48,523 nt of DNA from a virus, in IMG/VR virus record IMGVR_UViG_3300044701_000568, positions 1 through 48,523 of that record, one strand, 5' to 3'. Shown here in pieces: positions 30,599 through 36,354 of the stretch (position 1 is its first letter; every line of letters begins with the position of its first letter). Under the pieces are notes generated by a model, which made no database searches, was not told where the DNA came from, and worked only from the letters and a program-made list of their open reading frames with translations. Both the position numbers and the translations under genes were made by a program.

Positions 30599-30911
30599 TG
30601 TCCTCATCCATATTAGTCAGAAAATCTTCAAGTGCTTGATCTAAAGCATCTTTGGGAGATGTGTATCTTCCTTTGTCTCTAAGTTTTTTAGTATCAAAAG
30701 TTAGAGTTGGAGTCACAGATCCGTCTCTCTCTACTTTAACTTTTGCTCCAAAGATAGTTCCTTTGGGTTGAATGTTTAAGGTGTCAGCAGAGTCTAAAGA
30801 AACTTTTATCTTATCGTTCTCTGCTTTTAAATATCCTGACTTAGCAAGGACATCAACTACATCTCGCTCCCCAGGTAATTCATTATCATCTAGTTGATTA
30901 AATTTTGTCAT
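30591..30911 (-). CDS. Small late protein, unknown function
   Basis: 106 residues, charged and without membrane segments. The central part (LNIQPKGTIFGAKVKVERDGSVTPTLTF) reads as beta strands. A late promoter AATAAATA lies 29 bases upstream, and a GC-rich hairpin (30917-30937) separates the promoter from the ATG. It overlaps the next gene by eight bases. I do not recognise it. Confidence 0.75.
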   Translation of the reverse strand: MTKFNQLDDNELPGERDVVDVLAKSGYLKAENDKIKVSLDSADTLNIQPKGTIFGAKVKVERDGSVTPTLTFDTKKLRDKGRYTSPKDALDQALEDFLTNMDEDNV

Positions 30912-30916
30912 AGAAA

Positions 30917-30937
30917 GGGGAGGTGATCAGTCTCCCC
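30917..30937 (-). other. Hairpin overlapping the late transcript start
   Basis: Minus strand GGGGAG and CTCCCC arms around a nine-base loop, then TTTCT and the ATG at 30911. RNA begun at the late promoter (about 30934) would lose part of the 5' arm, while read-through RNA would form the whole hairpin, possibly as a weak terminator. Confidence 0.5.
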
Positions 30938-30939
30938 AC

Positions 30940-30947
30940 TATTTATT
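30940..30947 (-). promoter_or_regulatory. Late promoter AATAAATA
   Basis: AATAAATA on the minus strand 29 bases before the ATG of the 106-residue gene; it differs from the T4 consensus only at the first base. Confidence 0.65.
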
Positions 30948-32025: not shown

Positions 32026-32323
32026 TGGTGACACTATTGATGTTGATATTGATCTGGGTTTTAGTATCACACTCTCTCAAAGAGTAAGATTAAAAGATAT
32101 TGATGCTGCTGAAACTAGAACAACAAACCTAGCAGAAAAAGCAGAAGGTCTAGCAGCAAAAGCATGGCTAGAAAAAGAACTCTCCCGTGAAGGAGAGTGG
32201 ATTATTGAAACAACAAAAGAGGACAAGTATGGAAGAATACTTGGCACTCTTTATCTTGTTGGTGATCCCGTCACATTAAATGAAAGGATGTTGAATGAAG
32301 GTATTGCTAAACCTTATTCGTAA
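31985..32323 (+). CDS. Thermonuclease-like protein (staphylococcal nuclease homologue)
   Basis: 112 residues of the SNase fold. Motifs: VIDGDTIDVDIDLGF (metal-binding Asp), RVRLKDIDAAETR with the catalytic-type Arg, Asp and Glu in order, and DKYGRILGTLYL with the second Arg, then LNEGIAKPY. The family cleaves DNA and RNA with calcium. Cyanophage genomes commonly carry such a gene; the role could be host DNA breakdown. There is no signal peptide, so it should act inside the cell. Its start lies inside the membrane-peptide gene and its end overlaps the convergent 379-residue gene by ten bases. Confidence 0.9.
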   Translation: MYQYKIKKINRVIDGDTIDVDIDLGFSITLSQRVRLKDIDAAETRTTNLAEKAEGLAAKAWLEKELSREGEWIIETTKEDKYGRILGTLYLVGDPVTLNERMLNEGIAKPYS

Positions 32324-33453
32324 AAGTCGGCAGCACCAAAATCATCTGTGTAATTTGGAATCTCAAAGTCAATCACTGGTGGTGAAATCTGAGGATCATC
32401 ATAGTATAGATTATCATCAAATGGTGGAATCTCTTCGTGCCAATGATCTCCTGGATTTTGCTCTATGAATCTTCCAATGAAATCATCGTAATGCTCACTA
32501 GGAGAAGCATCATTTTCAGCATTATTGTGAGGCCCTGAATTACCTGGAGCATCATCATCTCCATTTCCCCATCCGTTGTCTTGATGGTTATCAGGTTTTC
32601 CTCCACCTCCTCCATTGCCAGGAGAATTTTCCGAATCATTATTTTGTCCTCCATCATTCTTTGAATCGCCTGGAGGTTGGTTTGGTTCGGGGTCTTGTCC
32701 ATCTTGGTGATTACCTTTACCTGGATTATCGGATGCTCCTGTCTCTCCATCCCATGGCGAGTTACCGACTTCTTTATCATTACCAGGATTACCTTTGCCT
32801 GGATCTTCAGGATCAGGCTCCTCAGGATCCTCTGGGTCTGGGTCTTCTGGATCTTCAGGATCAGGCTCCTCAGGATCTTCAGGATCCTCTGGGTCAACTG
32901 GTGGGTCCACAGGAGGATCTACAGGGGGGTCCACAGGCGGATCAACGGGTGGTTCAACAGGAGGGTCTATAGGCGGATCAACTGGCGGAACAGGGGGGTT
33001 CACAGGAGGATCAACTGGTGGGGCAGGGGGGTCTACAACTTGTTCTTGTTCTGGTAGATCGCCAACAACAATGCTGTCGTCAACATTATTCCCACTCCCA
33101 AAAGATATAGTATCAAGATTAAAAGAGATGTCATTTTTTCCAACGGGTGTAATGTCTATTCCATAAGCTTTAAATGCTTCTGCTGGAGTGATACTAGTTG
33201 GGATAATAGTATCTCCAGAAGATCCAAAGGATTCTAATGCTGGATTGGAAAAATCAATTCCTGCCGTAACTTCAACTTCACCTACATTAATTGATGGAGC
33301 ATCTTCTACTGGTGTAGTGATACTTACATCACCAACTGGTGTATATCCACCAGGGAAACGAGCAGCAGCAGTAGGATCATGTGGTATTTGATCCTGAGAT
33401 TGCTGACTCGTCTTGAGTGTTTCTTCGCCTTGTAATCCTAACTGATCTTCCAT
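32314..33453 (-). CDS. Proline/acid-rich repeat protein, probable late structural protein
   Basis: 379 residues. Residues 1-135 are ordinary. About 140-185 is a run of PPVDPP-type repeats, about 185-220 a run of DPEDPEEP-type repeats, and about 220-310 is Gly, Asn and Asp-rich; the end is acidic and aromatic (HWHEEIPPFDDNLYYDDP). Such a stalk-like proline region could be a rigid spacer in a fibre or an extended display arm. A late promoter (33473-33480) lies 20 bases upstream. It follows the lysozyme gene. It has no membrane segment or catalytic motif. Confidence 0.75.
   Translation of the reverse strand: MEDQLGLQGEETLKTSQQSQDQIPHDPTAAARFPGGYTPVGDVSITTPVEDAPSINVGEVEVTAGIDFSNPALESFGSSGDTIIPTSITPAEAFKAYGIDITPVGKNDISFNLDTISFGSGNNVDDSIVVGDLPEQEQVVDPPAPPVDPPVNPPVPPVDPPIDPPVEPPVDPPVDPPVDPPVDPPVDPEDPEDPEEPDPEDPEDPDPEDPEEPDPEDPGKGNPGNDKEVGNSPWDGETGASDNPGKGNHQDGQDPEPNQPPGDSKNDGGQNNDSENSPGNGGGGGKPDNHQDNGWGNGDDDAPGNSGPHNNAENDASPSEHYDDFIGRFIEQNPGDHWHEEIPPFDDNLYYDDPQISPPVIDFEIPNYTDDFGAADFYE
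32800..33040 (-). repeat. Short in-frame DNA repeats coding PPVDPP and DPEDPE runs
   Basis: Repeats of 12-15 bases. The 5' part of the gene codes PPVDP units and the 3' part DPEDPEEP units. Third positions vary widely, so the repeat is maintained at the protein level. It is not a CRISPR array: there are no unique spacers. Confidence 0.8.
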
Positions 33454-33472: not shown

Positions 33473-33480
33473 TATTTATT
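33473..33480 (-). promoter_or_regulatory. Late promoter AATAAATA
   Basis: AATAAATA on the minus strand 20 bases before the ATG of the repeat-protein gene, directly after the lysozyme stop codon. Confidence 0.6.
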
Positions 33481-33981
33481 TTATGTTGACCATAAAGCAC
33501 CTTCTGCTTTTCTTCTTCTCATCAGTCCTGCTTCTACCTTAGTGCCAGGATTACGATACAACGCTAATGCTCCTGGAACATCATTCCATCTTCCAGATTG
33601 TAATGCCTGAGTGATTGTTTTGAAGTCAGGACTTCCATAGAAGTTAGCGCCAAGATTATAAGCAAAAGATAATAGTGCTCCTCGTTTCTTATCGCTCATC
33701 TGATCCCAGTAAGGAATCTTTTTCAACTTAGGAATGAACTGAGTTTTGATTTGATTAATTAAAAGATCATCTGCTTCTTTTTGTGTGATCTTATCAGTAA
33801 TTTTAAATGGTTTCCCATCAAAGTTTCGTGTGCTTCCCCATCCTATGGTGATAGGAAGTCCTCCAGTGTATGGATCGTAGTAGGCATCTAATTCACATCC
33901 CTCAAATTCCTTAATTAAAGCAACACCAACCAAAGGAACTTCATCAGGATTGTTTGCCCGATTGGAATTTATGGTTGGCAT
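33481..33981 (-). CDS. Endolysin, GH24 lysozyme (T4 lysozyme type)
   Basis: 166 residues, close to T4 lysozyme (164). The catalytic Glu is in LIKEFEGCELDAYYDPY, followed by GLPITIGWGST with the Thr/Ser region of the active site. LLSFAYNLGANF and GLMRRRKAEGALW are the usual GH24 late motifs. It cuts the beta-1,4 bond between MurNAc and GlcNAc. There is no signal peptide, so a holin is needed for access. It starts two bases after the peptidase stop and belongs to the late operon that begins at 35016. Confidence 0.95.
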   Translation of the reverse strand: MPTINSNRANNPDEVPLVGVALIKEFEGCELDAYYDPYTGGLPITIGWGSTRNFDGKPFKITDKITQKEADDLLINQIKTQFIPKLKKIPYWDQMSDKKRGALLSFAYNLGANFYGSPDFKTITQALQSGRWNDVPGALALYRNPGTKVEAGLMRRRKAEGALWST

Positions 33982-33983
33982 GT

Positions 33984-34682
33984 CTACTTTTTTGCTTCAA
34001 AGATTCTACCCCAACCATCACTACCTTTGGGACACCATCGCTTCGCCAGTTCAGATCTCTTATACACAGCACCCTTGCCATTGGTTACGGGTCCAGTATA
34101 ACCATCATTGAGACTTCCATAAGGATCATTCACAACATAGTCTTCACCTTTCTTGCCGATGACTACAGCCATGTGCCCACCAGTAGGAGCAGATAAAGGA
34201 CCACGATGATAGAACCCGATAACAACAGGTCTCCCAGCAGCAAGCTGACGATCAAGTTCGGCAAAATTAAGATTATACTCAAAGCGTGAATCAATTCCAA
34301 AATCTTTAAGAACTTTGGTTTGAACTGAGTGATCAGTTGAGTCGCCAATAGCGAATACCTTTCTAACATAGGCATCATCTCCCTTGGGACCAGGCAATGA
34401 TCCTGGTTTGAAATACTCTAGTGCCATAGCACAGGCAGATGAATTACAGGTTCTCTGGGCATCTCTGTAGTTATCTGTCTGTGGAAAGAATGGCACATCT
34501 AATACTGATGGCACTGCTGGAGCTACTGCTTTTTCTCTGAATGTTTTAACCCACTCAGCAGTATCTTCCATTTCTTCTGGTGCCTTTGCTTCAAGCACCT
34601 TCTCAAGTAATTCTACTCCAGCAATATGCTTTGGATTCTTTTCATCGTAATGCTTAAAAAAGTTATGTAAATCAATTTTCAT
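33984..34682 (-). CDS. C39-like cysteine peptidase
   Basis: 232 residues. Residues about 60-230 form a papain-like C39 domain: LDVPFFPQTDNYRDAQRTCN with the catalytic Cys in TCNSSACAMAL, His in TGGHMAVVIG and Asp/Asn in YVVNDPYGS. Phage proteins of this family may cut murein peptide cross-links or process proteins. The N-terminal 60 residues are helical. The ATG at 34682 has GGAG six bases upstream; the TTG at 34694 was rejected. It overlaps the nuclease-like gene by 11 bases and is followed by the lysozyme. The pairing suggests a two-enzyme lysis set, which is inference. Confidence 0.85.
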   Translation of the reverse strand: MKIDLHNFFKHYDEKNPKHIAGVELLEKVLEAKAPEEMEDTAEWVKTFREKAVAPAVPSVLDVPFFPQTDNYRDAQRTCNSSACAMALEYFKPGSLPGPKGDDAYVRKVFAIGDSTDHSVQTKVLKDFGIDSRFEYNLNFAELDRQLAAGRPVVIGFYHRGPLSAPTGGHMAVVIGKKGEDYVVNDPYGSLNDGYTGPVTNGKGAVYKRSELAKRWCPKGSDGWGRIFEAKK

Positions 34683-35016
34683 TTTTGTCTCCAAATAATT
34701 GAATGTAATACTCTGCGTCTACTACAACTAGTGGTTTCTTACCATTCTTTTTCATAATAACAATAGGTTCATAGTCACCACAATTAGCGGATGCCTGCTC
34801 ATATGCTTCCCAGATATTTAGTTTCTCCACATTTTTACACTCAATGCTGTGAGGAAACTTTGACCTAGCAGCACGAGCCATAATGAGATCTTCTCCACCA
34901 GCACCCATGCTACGTGATTCAATATCTTCTGGGTGAACATCAAGCATCTCAATGAGTTTATCTCTCACCCATTGTTGAAGTCTACGTCCCTTTGCCTTTG
35001 CTGATTGTGGGCGCAT
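34672..35016 (-). CDS. PD-(D/E)XK nuclease-like protein (Holliday-junction-resolvase-like)
   Basis: 114 residues. After a basic helix (KAKGRRLQQWVRDKLIEML) come the order of motifs of the PD-(D/E)XK fold: SRSMGAGGEDLIM with the metal-binding Asp, and HSIECKNVEKL with E-x-K. Then a helix and the strand PIVIMKKNGKKPLVVV follow. Close families include archaeal-type resolvases and phage recombination nucleases. Its substrate is unknown. The start has GGAGG nine bases upstream, which lies in a hairpin overlapped by a late promoter (35021-35050). It is the first gene of the operon with the peptidase and lysozyme. Confidence 0.75.
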   Translation of the reverse strand: MRPQSAKAKGRRLQQWVRDKLIEMLDVHPEDIESRSMGAGGEDLIMARAARSKFPHSIECKNVEKLNIWEAYEQASANCGDYEPIVIMKKNGKKPLVVVDAEYYIQLFGDKNEN

Positions 35017-35020
35017 AATA

Positions 35021-35045
35021 AAATACCTCCGTCATGGAGGTATTT
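35021..35045 (-). promoter_or_regulatory. RBS-sequestering hairpin overlapped by a late promoter
   Basis: Ten-base perfect arms (35021-35030 and 35036-35045) with a five-base loop. On the minus strand the 3' arm contains the GGAGG (35030-35026) that serves the ATG at 35016. The minus-strand sequence ATAAATA (35047-35041) overlaps the 5' arm. With T4 late spacing the RNA would begin near 35035, in the loop, so late RNA lacks the 5' arm and leaves GGAGG free. Read-through RNA from nrdB would hide it. The hairpin may also slow or end read-through RNA. Confidence 0.7.
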
Positions 35046-35048
35046 ATC
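35041..35048 (-). promoter_or_regulatory. Late promoter GATAAATA
   Basis: GATAAATA on the minus strand, 25 bases before the ATG of the nuclease-like gene that heads the lysis operon. Confidence 0.65.
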
Positions 35049-35185
35049 TAGTCAATTGAACCAGGGATCTGGAATTTTTCCATTAGAATCTTCAGCATCC
35101 ACCTTTGTTGATAATTTAGATTCTCTATGTTTTGCTGCTGTTCCTTCAGTCTTTTCAGTATCTTTTCTAGTTTTTTCTTTTTCAC
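35048..35185 (-). CDS. Possible 45-residue coiled-coil protein with GTG start
   Basis: A GTG at 35185 overlaps the nrdB stop (GTGA) and opens a 45-codon frame rich in Lys, Leu and Gln (KKKKLEKILKRLKEQQQ ... MEKFQIPGSID), an amphipathic helix. It ends exactly at the late promoter before the nuclease gene. A second frame of the same DNA is also open (ending KIPDPWFN) and continues from inside nrdB, so the choice of frame is not certain. Confidence 0.45.
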   Translation of the reverse strand: MKKKKLEKILKRLKEQQQNIENLNYQQRWMLKILMEKFQIPGSID

Positions 35186-36354
35186 AATTTGAAACCAGCA
35201 AATGTATCTTTCTTGATATCCTGCTTAATACCACCGATAACATAACTTTCTACCTCTGTTTCTTGTGGGGCAACTTGAACTTGTCCTGAATTAAACCAAT
35301 GTTCTGTCCATGGAAGTGGATTGTTCTTAGCAGAAATATCATAGATGGGTTTCAAACCAATTGCTTTCATGCGACGATTAGCAGTCCATTGAACATATTG
35401 CTGGAGCAGTTTAGAATTAAGACCAATCATAGATCCATCTTTGAACAGGTAATCCGCCCATGCTTCCTCCTCAGCAACACAATCTTTGAACATCTGAATA
35501 ACATTCTCTTCTTCTTCATCCGCAATCTTAACCATATCAGGATCATCACCAGCTAACCATTTGTTGATAACCTTTTGTGTGATGGTCATGTGCTGTGCTT
35601 CATCTCGGGCAATAAGTTTGATGATCTTCGCATTACCTTCCATCTTCTGACGTTCAGCAAAAGCAAAAGAGCAAGCAAATGAAACATAAAAACGAATTGC
35701 CTCTAGAATATAAACGTTTACCATAGCGCGATAGAGTTTGCGCTTGACCTCATACAACTCACTAGTTGCTGCTGGGACACCCTCTAAGGCGTGTTGCCAT
35801 TGATTACCTGCGCCCCACTGCTGAGCTGCCTGAACAAAGTCATCGTATGCTCCAGTGACGCTCTGGGCACGTTCTAGGATCTTCTCATCAGTCAGGATGT
35901 GATCAAAGACATCAGAAGGATCTGAATATACATTCTTGATGATGTATGTGTAGGAGCGACTATGAATCATTTCCATAGTCTGCCAGATATTCATGGCAGA
36001 TTCTAGTTCTGGAATAGAGCAGTAAGGAATAAATGCCATGCCAGGTGCTCTACCCTGAAGAGAATCAAGCATGATCTGATACTTCAGATTAGAAGTAAAG
36101 ATGTGCCTCTCAGTATCAGTTAGTTGCTGATAGTCAGCACGATCCTTGTTAAGCGATACCTCTTGAGGACGCCAGAAGAGTGACAACTGCTTGTCTGTTA
36201 ACTTATCAAAGTCAGCATACCTAAAATTATCGTATCTCTGAAGACCCTGTGGAGCACCAAAGAACATAGGTTGCTTGGTGGTATCCACAGAGTTGGTATT
36301 AAGAACTGTCATACCTTTAATGTCTTCGTTGAGTTTAAATTTTACAGCTGTCAC
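35182..36354 (-). CDS. nrdB: Ribonucleotide reductase class Ia, beta subunit
   Basis: 390 residues, usual for NrdB. Iron ligands and the radical site are visible: D97 in KYQIMLDSLQGR, E128 and H131 in EMIHSRSYTYI with the radical tyrosine Y135, and the second set in FAFAERQKMEG and ARDEAQHM. It supplies the tyrosyl radical for NrdA to reduce ribonucleotides to deoxyribonucleotides. The start lies 20 bases inside the end of nrdA, so the two are translationally coupled. Reductants would come from the glutaredoxin and thioredoxin-like genes at 27-28 kb. The C-terminus KDTFAGFKL differs from bacterial tails, which set NrdA binding. Confidence 0.97.
   Translation of the reverse strand: MTAVKFKLNEDIKGMTVLNTNSVDTTKQPMFFGAPQGLQRYDNFRYADFDKLTDKQLSLFWRPQEVSLNKDRADYQQLTDTERHIFTSNLKYQIMLDSLQGRAPGMAFIPYCSIPELESAMNIWQTMEMIHSRSYTYIIKNVYSDPSDVFDHILTDEKILERAQSVTGAYDDFVQAAQQWGAGNQWQHALEGVPAATSELYEVKRKLYRAMVNVYILEAIRFYVSFACSFAFAERQKMEGNAKIIKLIARDEAQHMTITQKVINKWLAGDDPDMVKIADEEEENVIQMFKDCVAEEEAWADYLFKDGSMIGLNSKLLQQYVQWTANRRMKAIGLKPIYDISAKNNPLPWTEHWFNSGQVQVAPQETEVESYVIGGIKQDIKKDTFAGFKL

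Follow-up and report, generated by a model that had tools for sequence, protein, structure and literature searches.

The nuclease gene of this locus lies directly downstream of nrdAB on the same strand, which raises the question of how it could be kept off the message of its upstream neighbours and what part the hairpin in its leader plays in this. The window, i.e. the whole stretch of 48,523 nucleotides that was analysed, is an IMG/VR fragment of a virus of marine cyanobacteria and contains 11 matches to ATAAATA, all of them on the minus strand, which is also the strand of the nuclease gene and of nrdAB. Cyanophage S-PM2 is the nearest annotated relative at the site of the nuclease leader. 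We presume, with a probability of roughly 0.83, that the nuclease gene is switched by an occlusion hairpin embedded in its late promoter, whereby the late start, the read-through, the silence of the gene on read-through RNA and the termination are inferred from sequence and calculation. The features of the locus are compiled in the following table.

Features of the nuclease leader and of the neighbouring genes in the window (all on the minus strand)
Feature	Position	Strand	Remark
Late promoter element GATAAATA	35041..35048	-	at -13 to -6 if spaced as in T4; TAAATA unchanged throughout the alignment of 58 leaders
Hairpin 5' arm AAATACCUCC	35036..35045	-	overlaps late promoter; pairs counted in the alignment
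Loop AUGAC	35031..35035	-	late RNA predicted to begin at 35035, taking the spacing of T4
Hairpin 3' arm GGAGGUAUUU	35021..35030	-	Shine-Dalgarno sequence GGAGG at 35026-35030
U-rich spacer UAUUUUAUU between Shine-Dalgarno sequence and start	35017..35025	-	in most relatives a run of at least 5 U, terminator-like
Gene that opens the late unit, putative nuclease of 114 aa (PD-(D/E)XK / Holliday-junction resolvase-like)	34672..35016	-	PHROG 244
C39-like peptidase	33984..34694	-	lysis-associated PHROG
Phage lysozyme, third gene	33481..33981	-	PF00959
nrdB (upstream nrd unit, last large gene)	35182..36354	-	whole hairpin would be contained in read-through RNA

The minus-strand RNA across the leader reads CUAGAUAAAUACCUCC-AUGAC-GGAGGUAUUUUAUU-AUG and comprises a perfect stem of 10 bp with a loop of 5 nt (in the DNA CTAGATAAATACCTCCATGACGGAGGTATTTTATTATGCGC, with AAATACCTCC and GGAGGTATTT as stem and ATGAC as loop). 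The ATG of the nuclease gene (35016-35014) is separated by 9 nt from the last G of GGAGG, and the late consensus lies inside the 5' arm. The first-pass annotation had described a perfect 10-bp hairpin that contains GGAGG and is overlapped in its 5' arm by the late element, and this description is exact, its coordinates being confirmed in the sequence. The stem by itself is only mildly unusual for the window, in which stems that are perfect over 10 bp or more and close on a loop of 3-8 nt occur twice compared to 0.45 expected from shuffles. A search against Rfam yielded no relevant match. The predicted late RNA begins exactly with an AUG (35035-35033, minus strand) that would open a short leaderless reading frame. 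This loop AUG was rejected as a start codon since it does not share the frame of the nuclease gene, lacks a Shine-Dalgarno sequence and is not conserved in relatives.

RNA reading through from the presumably early or middle nrd genes would carry both arms, fold and hide GGAGG, and the nuclease gene would be silent on this RNA. With the late sigma factor of the phage, transcription would begin in the loop; the resulting RNA would lack the 5' arm, would thus not fold and would expose GGAGG. The position of this start is predicted from T4, where the late element has been placed at -13 to -6 (PMC1524935). Applied to the element of the nuclease leader, the same spacing puts +1 at the first base of the loop, which agrees with the late start at about 35035 proposed in the first-pass annotation.

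The computed accessibility of the Shine-Dalgarno sequence is consistent with such a switch. Opening it was calculated to cost 12.5-13.5 kcal/mol in the read-through RNA and about 1 kcal/mol in an RNA beginning at 35035, and a calculation on a slightly different stretch gave 13.7 versus 2.5 kcal/mol. In RNAs starting at 35037-35040 the Shine-Dalgarno sequence is still about 5-6 kcal/mol from being free. Over 92 leaders, in which +1 was set by the same T4-spacing rule, the median cost was 11.5 kcal/mol for the read-through and 2.5 kcal/mol for the late RNA, while little switching was predicted for three leaders (L032, L042, L011). According to these calculations strong sequestration is confined to RNA carrying the 5' arm, as it had been proposed that GGAGG is left free in the late RNA.

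Using the nuclease protein as query, 80 IMG/VR loci were fetched, and 59 of these contain TAAATA followed by C or T at no more than 45 nt from the start. Considering all loci, some of which had been collected with a DNA pattern and thus favour the element, TAAATA is present in the expected interval in 91 of 114 distinct 48-nt leaders. Since the late element is absent from the searched interval in 23 of the 114, the arrangement is, judged from these leaders, not universal before the nuclease gene.

When 58 leaders were aligned, 89.9% of the cells were paired and 24 cells were changed on both sides, although these counts do not represent independent events since the leader sequences are related. 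Neither the paired fraction nor the covariation score was as high in any of 500 shuffles. Both are best at slide 0, and the pairing falls to 55-60% when the partner is slid by one column. The number of pair types in this alignment showed no excess over shuffles. The paired changes which the first-pass annotation had suggested looking for in relatives were hence detected. Furthermore, in a pattern scan for which no ATG was demanded, the last G was followed at 8-9 nt by the start in 45 of 61 distinct elements, which is the spacing expected of a Shine-Dalgarno sequence.

A blind detector was applied to the complete genomes of T4, S-PM2, Syn9, Syn1 and P-SSM2 and to two long IMG/VR contigs. Its class A comprises stems that start in the late element and have a dG of at most -6, with a Shine-Dalgarno sequence in the 3' arm at 4-12 nt from the ATG. 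Among the 50 late-promoter genes of T4 the detector returned only genes 49 and e, both of which have been listed with a sequestered ribosome-binding site (PMC3014915). From the 42 late-promoter genes of S-PM2 it returned only the same nuclease gene. Both IMG/VR contigs returned the nuclease gene, one of them together with a second gene (869 aa), and no class-A match was found in Syn9, Syn1 and P-SSM2. Since the detector yields 0-2 matches per genome compared to 0.00-0.07 expected after leader shuffling, the combination of stem, late promoter and Shine-Dalgarno sequence is not chance. The exact pattern TAAATACCTCC proved too narrow a query for the complete genomes. An occlusion switch similar to that of T4 gene e, as proposed by the first-pass annotation, is well supported by the conservation, the compensatory changes, the blind scan and the computed accessibility.

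The hairpin of T4 gene e (ATAAATACCTTC...AGGAGGTATTATG) has nearly the same arms, the same overlap with the promoter and a similar cost of opening the Shine-Dalgarno sequence (about 14 versus about 4 kcal/mol in the same calculation), and its occlusion cuts lysozyme synthesis 100-fold (PMC3014915). However, gene e is served by two late promoters, has a spacer of 4 nt and lacks a U-run, and in T4 the lysozyme gene itself comes first, whereas it is the third gene behind the nuclease gene here. T4 gene 49, encoding endonuclease VII, is the closer parallel. Its late element lies in the 5' arm, the Shine-Dalgarno sequence (AAGG/GGG) in the 3' arm and the start just after it; its product resolves branched DNA, and it was found by the same blind scan. 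It differs in that endonuclease VII (PF02945) and the PD-(D/E)XK-like protein belong to different families and in that the T-run of the T4 tail GGGTTTATT is shorter. The endonuclease VII domain is present in T4 and S-PM2 and absent from nine other tested records. In the case of T4 I-TevI, whose ribosome-binding site is hidden inside an early unit, the late RNA likewise lacks the 5' part responsible for this, and for Aeh1 mobE promoter and RNA structure have been described as similarly arranged (PMC2988022). However, both of these are mobile genes, whereas the nuclease of the present locus is not a known homing enzyme. The logic of genes e and 49 would thereby be extended to marine cyanophages, for which a review that examined syn9, S-PM2 and P-SSM2 listed no apparent gene e (PMC3014915).

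The nuclease activity of the first gene product is putative and inferred from family labels. The protein matched PHROG 244 (E=6e-24), which is labelled RusA-like Holliday junction resolvase. Within Pfam just PDDEXK_15 (PD-(D/E)XK phage endonuclease) was hit below the cut-off, without a RusA match, and no sequence relative was found in the PDB. A structure prediction based on an alignment of IMG/VR loci only was of low confidence (mean pLDDT 57) and gave no fold match in the PDB. By inspection, an invariant GED...ECK pattern fits the PD-(D/E)XK nuclease superfamily.

Beyond occlusion, the sequences suggest that in most relatives the hairpin doubles as an intrinsic terminator and is thus part of a double lock that the late RNA would escape. 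Neither this terminator-like U-run nor the parallel to gene 49 had been recognised in the first-pass annotation. Where the 3' arm runs into a U-run the hairpin would probably terminate part of the read-through transcription, and late RNA would avoid this because it has no 5' arm. A run of at least 5 T in the 9 nt before the ATG was found in 27 of 37 protein-fetched leaders compared to 11 of 414 genes with a Shine-Dalgarno sequence drawn from six cyanophage genomes or contigs. The S-PM2 copy was called terminator-like. In six genomes or contigs, only 5 of 68 terminator-like hairpins that lack TAAATA lie at 12 nt or less from a start.

Occlusion and termination nevertheless appear to be separable, since there are class-B elements without a Shine-Dalgarno sequence to hide, and since a subclade without U-run (L026, L035, L039, L057, L059) keeps the stem over an AGAG-type Shine-Dalgarno sequence by a paired change from C-G to U-A, which points to occlusion being kept without terminator features. 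Most copies look as if they had both functions. The hairpin that holds the late promoter in class-B elements carries GGAG on its 5' side and CTCC on its 3' side, and is followed by a T-run and the ATG.

The window itself contains a class-B hairpin at a late promoter (30909-30946, minus strand; ATAAATAGTGGGGAGACTGATCACCTCCCCTTTCTATG) with bases resembling a Shine-Dalgarno sequence in the 5' arm and CTCCCC in the 3' arm, which suggests a terminator that overlaps with a late promoter and precedes a start codon without Shine-Dalgarno sequence. Similar elements were found in S-PM2 (117801) and in one contig (G002, 11061), and class-B elements recur (L415, L420, L430, L435, L449 and others) before small membrane-like and other proteins. 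The leaders without U-run (L026, L028, L032, L035, L039, L055, L057, L059) have an AU-rich stem and a weak AGAG-like Shine-Dalgarno sequence, and several of them are preceded by another inverted repeat, ACCCTG...CAGGGT.

Chance, or a constraint on a palindrome at the DNA level without any function of the RNA, could account for the stem taken alone, which is unremarkable given the frequency of such stems in the window. Based on the covariation, however, and likewise on the fixed spacing of the Shine-Dalgarno sequence, the recurrence in many phages and the fact that T4 genes e and 49 were recovered blindly, this explanation is hardly credible. It could also be assumed that the hairpin serves the nrd unit solely as an intrinsic terminator, which holds promoter and Shine-Dalgarno sequence for the sake of compactness while the occlusion is functionless. 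The U-run of most relatives would fit this assumption, as would the class-B hairpins, which look like pure terminators (one of them at 30946), and column pair 6-29, at which 19 of 57 leaders do not have the A required for pairing, mostly because a T lengthens the U-run. The same holds for one leader (L160, same contig as L072) in which the retained hairpin is followed by AUG-UAA and then by a separate free Shine-Dalgarno sequence and the real start. On the other hand, the subclade without U-run retains the stem by compensatory change, and T4 gene e shares the layout without a U-run, its occlusion being established (PMC3014915). The window's own tail is weak, with a short U-run, a simple terminator scan did not call the hairpin, and the computed cost of opening the Shine-Dalgarno sequence exceeds 9 kcal/mol in most leaders. 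Taking this into account, a function as terminator only seems quite improbable.

A further reading concerns the purpose of the switch, which might exist to delay lysis by keeping the downstream C39 peptidase and lysozyme genes silent until late; the first-pass annotation had accordingly taken the hairpin to suggest a conserved means of timing lysis. The late element is present in each of the 37 distinct leaders that have lysis genes downstream, the gene with the same arrangement in T4 is the lysozyme gene e, and hairpins of this kind precede lysozyme genes in several further contigs (L258, L342, L345, L352, L395, L399, L412). However, the element is also present in 34 of 57 leaders without a downstream lysis gene, a count partly enriched by pattern-fetched loci, and the hairpin hides the Shine-Dalgarno sequence of the first gene only, the peptidase and lysozyme genes having starts of their own. 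Moreover, in two loci (L030, L036) a fused lysozyme-C39 gene overlaps the nrdB stop (ATGA) without hairpin or late promoter, while the nuclease gene keeps its hairpin. Lysis timing as the purpose is thus doubtful, and the earlier claim could not be upheld, given that the element stays with the nuclease gene where lysis genes are missing and that lysozyme genes joined to nrd do without it.

The fused gene is located about 2.1-2.4 kb upstream of the nuclease gene and may be translated from nrd RNA, since it overlaps the nrdB stop and lacks a late promoter. In loci without the element the start of the nuclease gene often overlaps or closely trails the preceding gene. Due to this arrangement, the two loci with the fused gene and the retention of the element without lysis genes downstream, the element tracks the nuclease gene as first gene of a late unit; in most relatives this gene adjoins nrdB or sits nearby. 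The timing by the promoter-embedded occlusion hairpin most likely serves the nuclease and not cell lysis as such, and delayed lysis may be a by-product.

Among the matches listed in pattern scans of IMG/VR, the same layout also precedes genes encoding a head-tail adaptor (PHROG 211), endolysin, T4-like lysozymes, homing endonucleases (L360, L283, L322) and proteins of unknown function. We lean slightly towards the view that the double-lock element is widespread in marine T4-like phages. A single hairpin would then act as intrinsic terminator, shutter of the ribosome-binding site and late promoter, a start in the loop would disable both locks, and the element could be placed before genes for a nuclease, a neck protein, an endolysin or homing endonucleases. 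This suggests that T4-like phages keep DNA-cutting enzymes, and not lysis enzymes alone, off their early messages. The element is supported by covariation and can be found by pattern, and the idea that terminator, promoter and ribosome site are merged within about 30 bases is directly testable.

Further along the window, a 379-aa protein without Pfam or PHROG match (32314-33453, minus strand), which is preceded by ATAAATA at 33479, contains long repeats rich in Pro, Asp and Glu.
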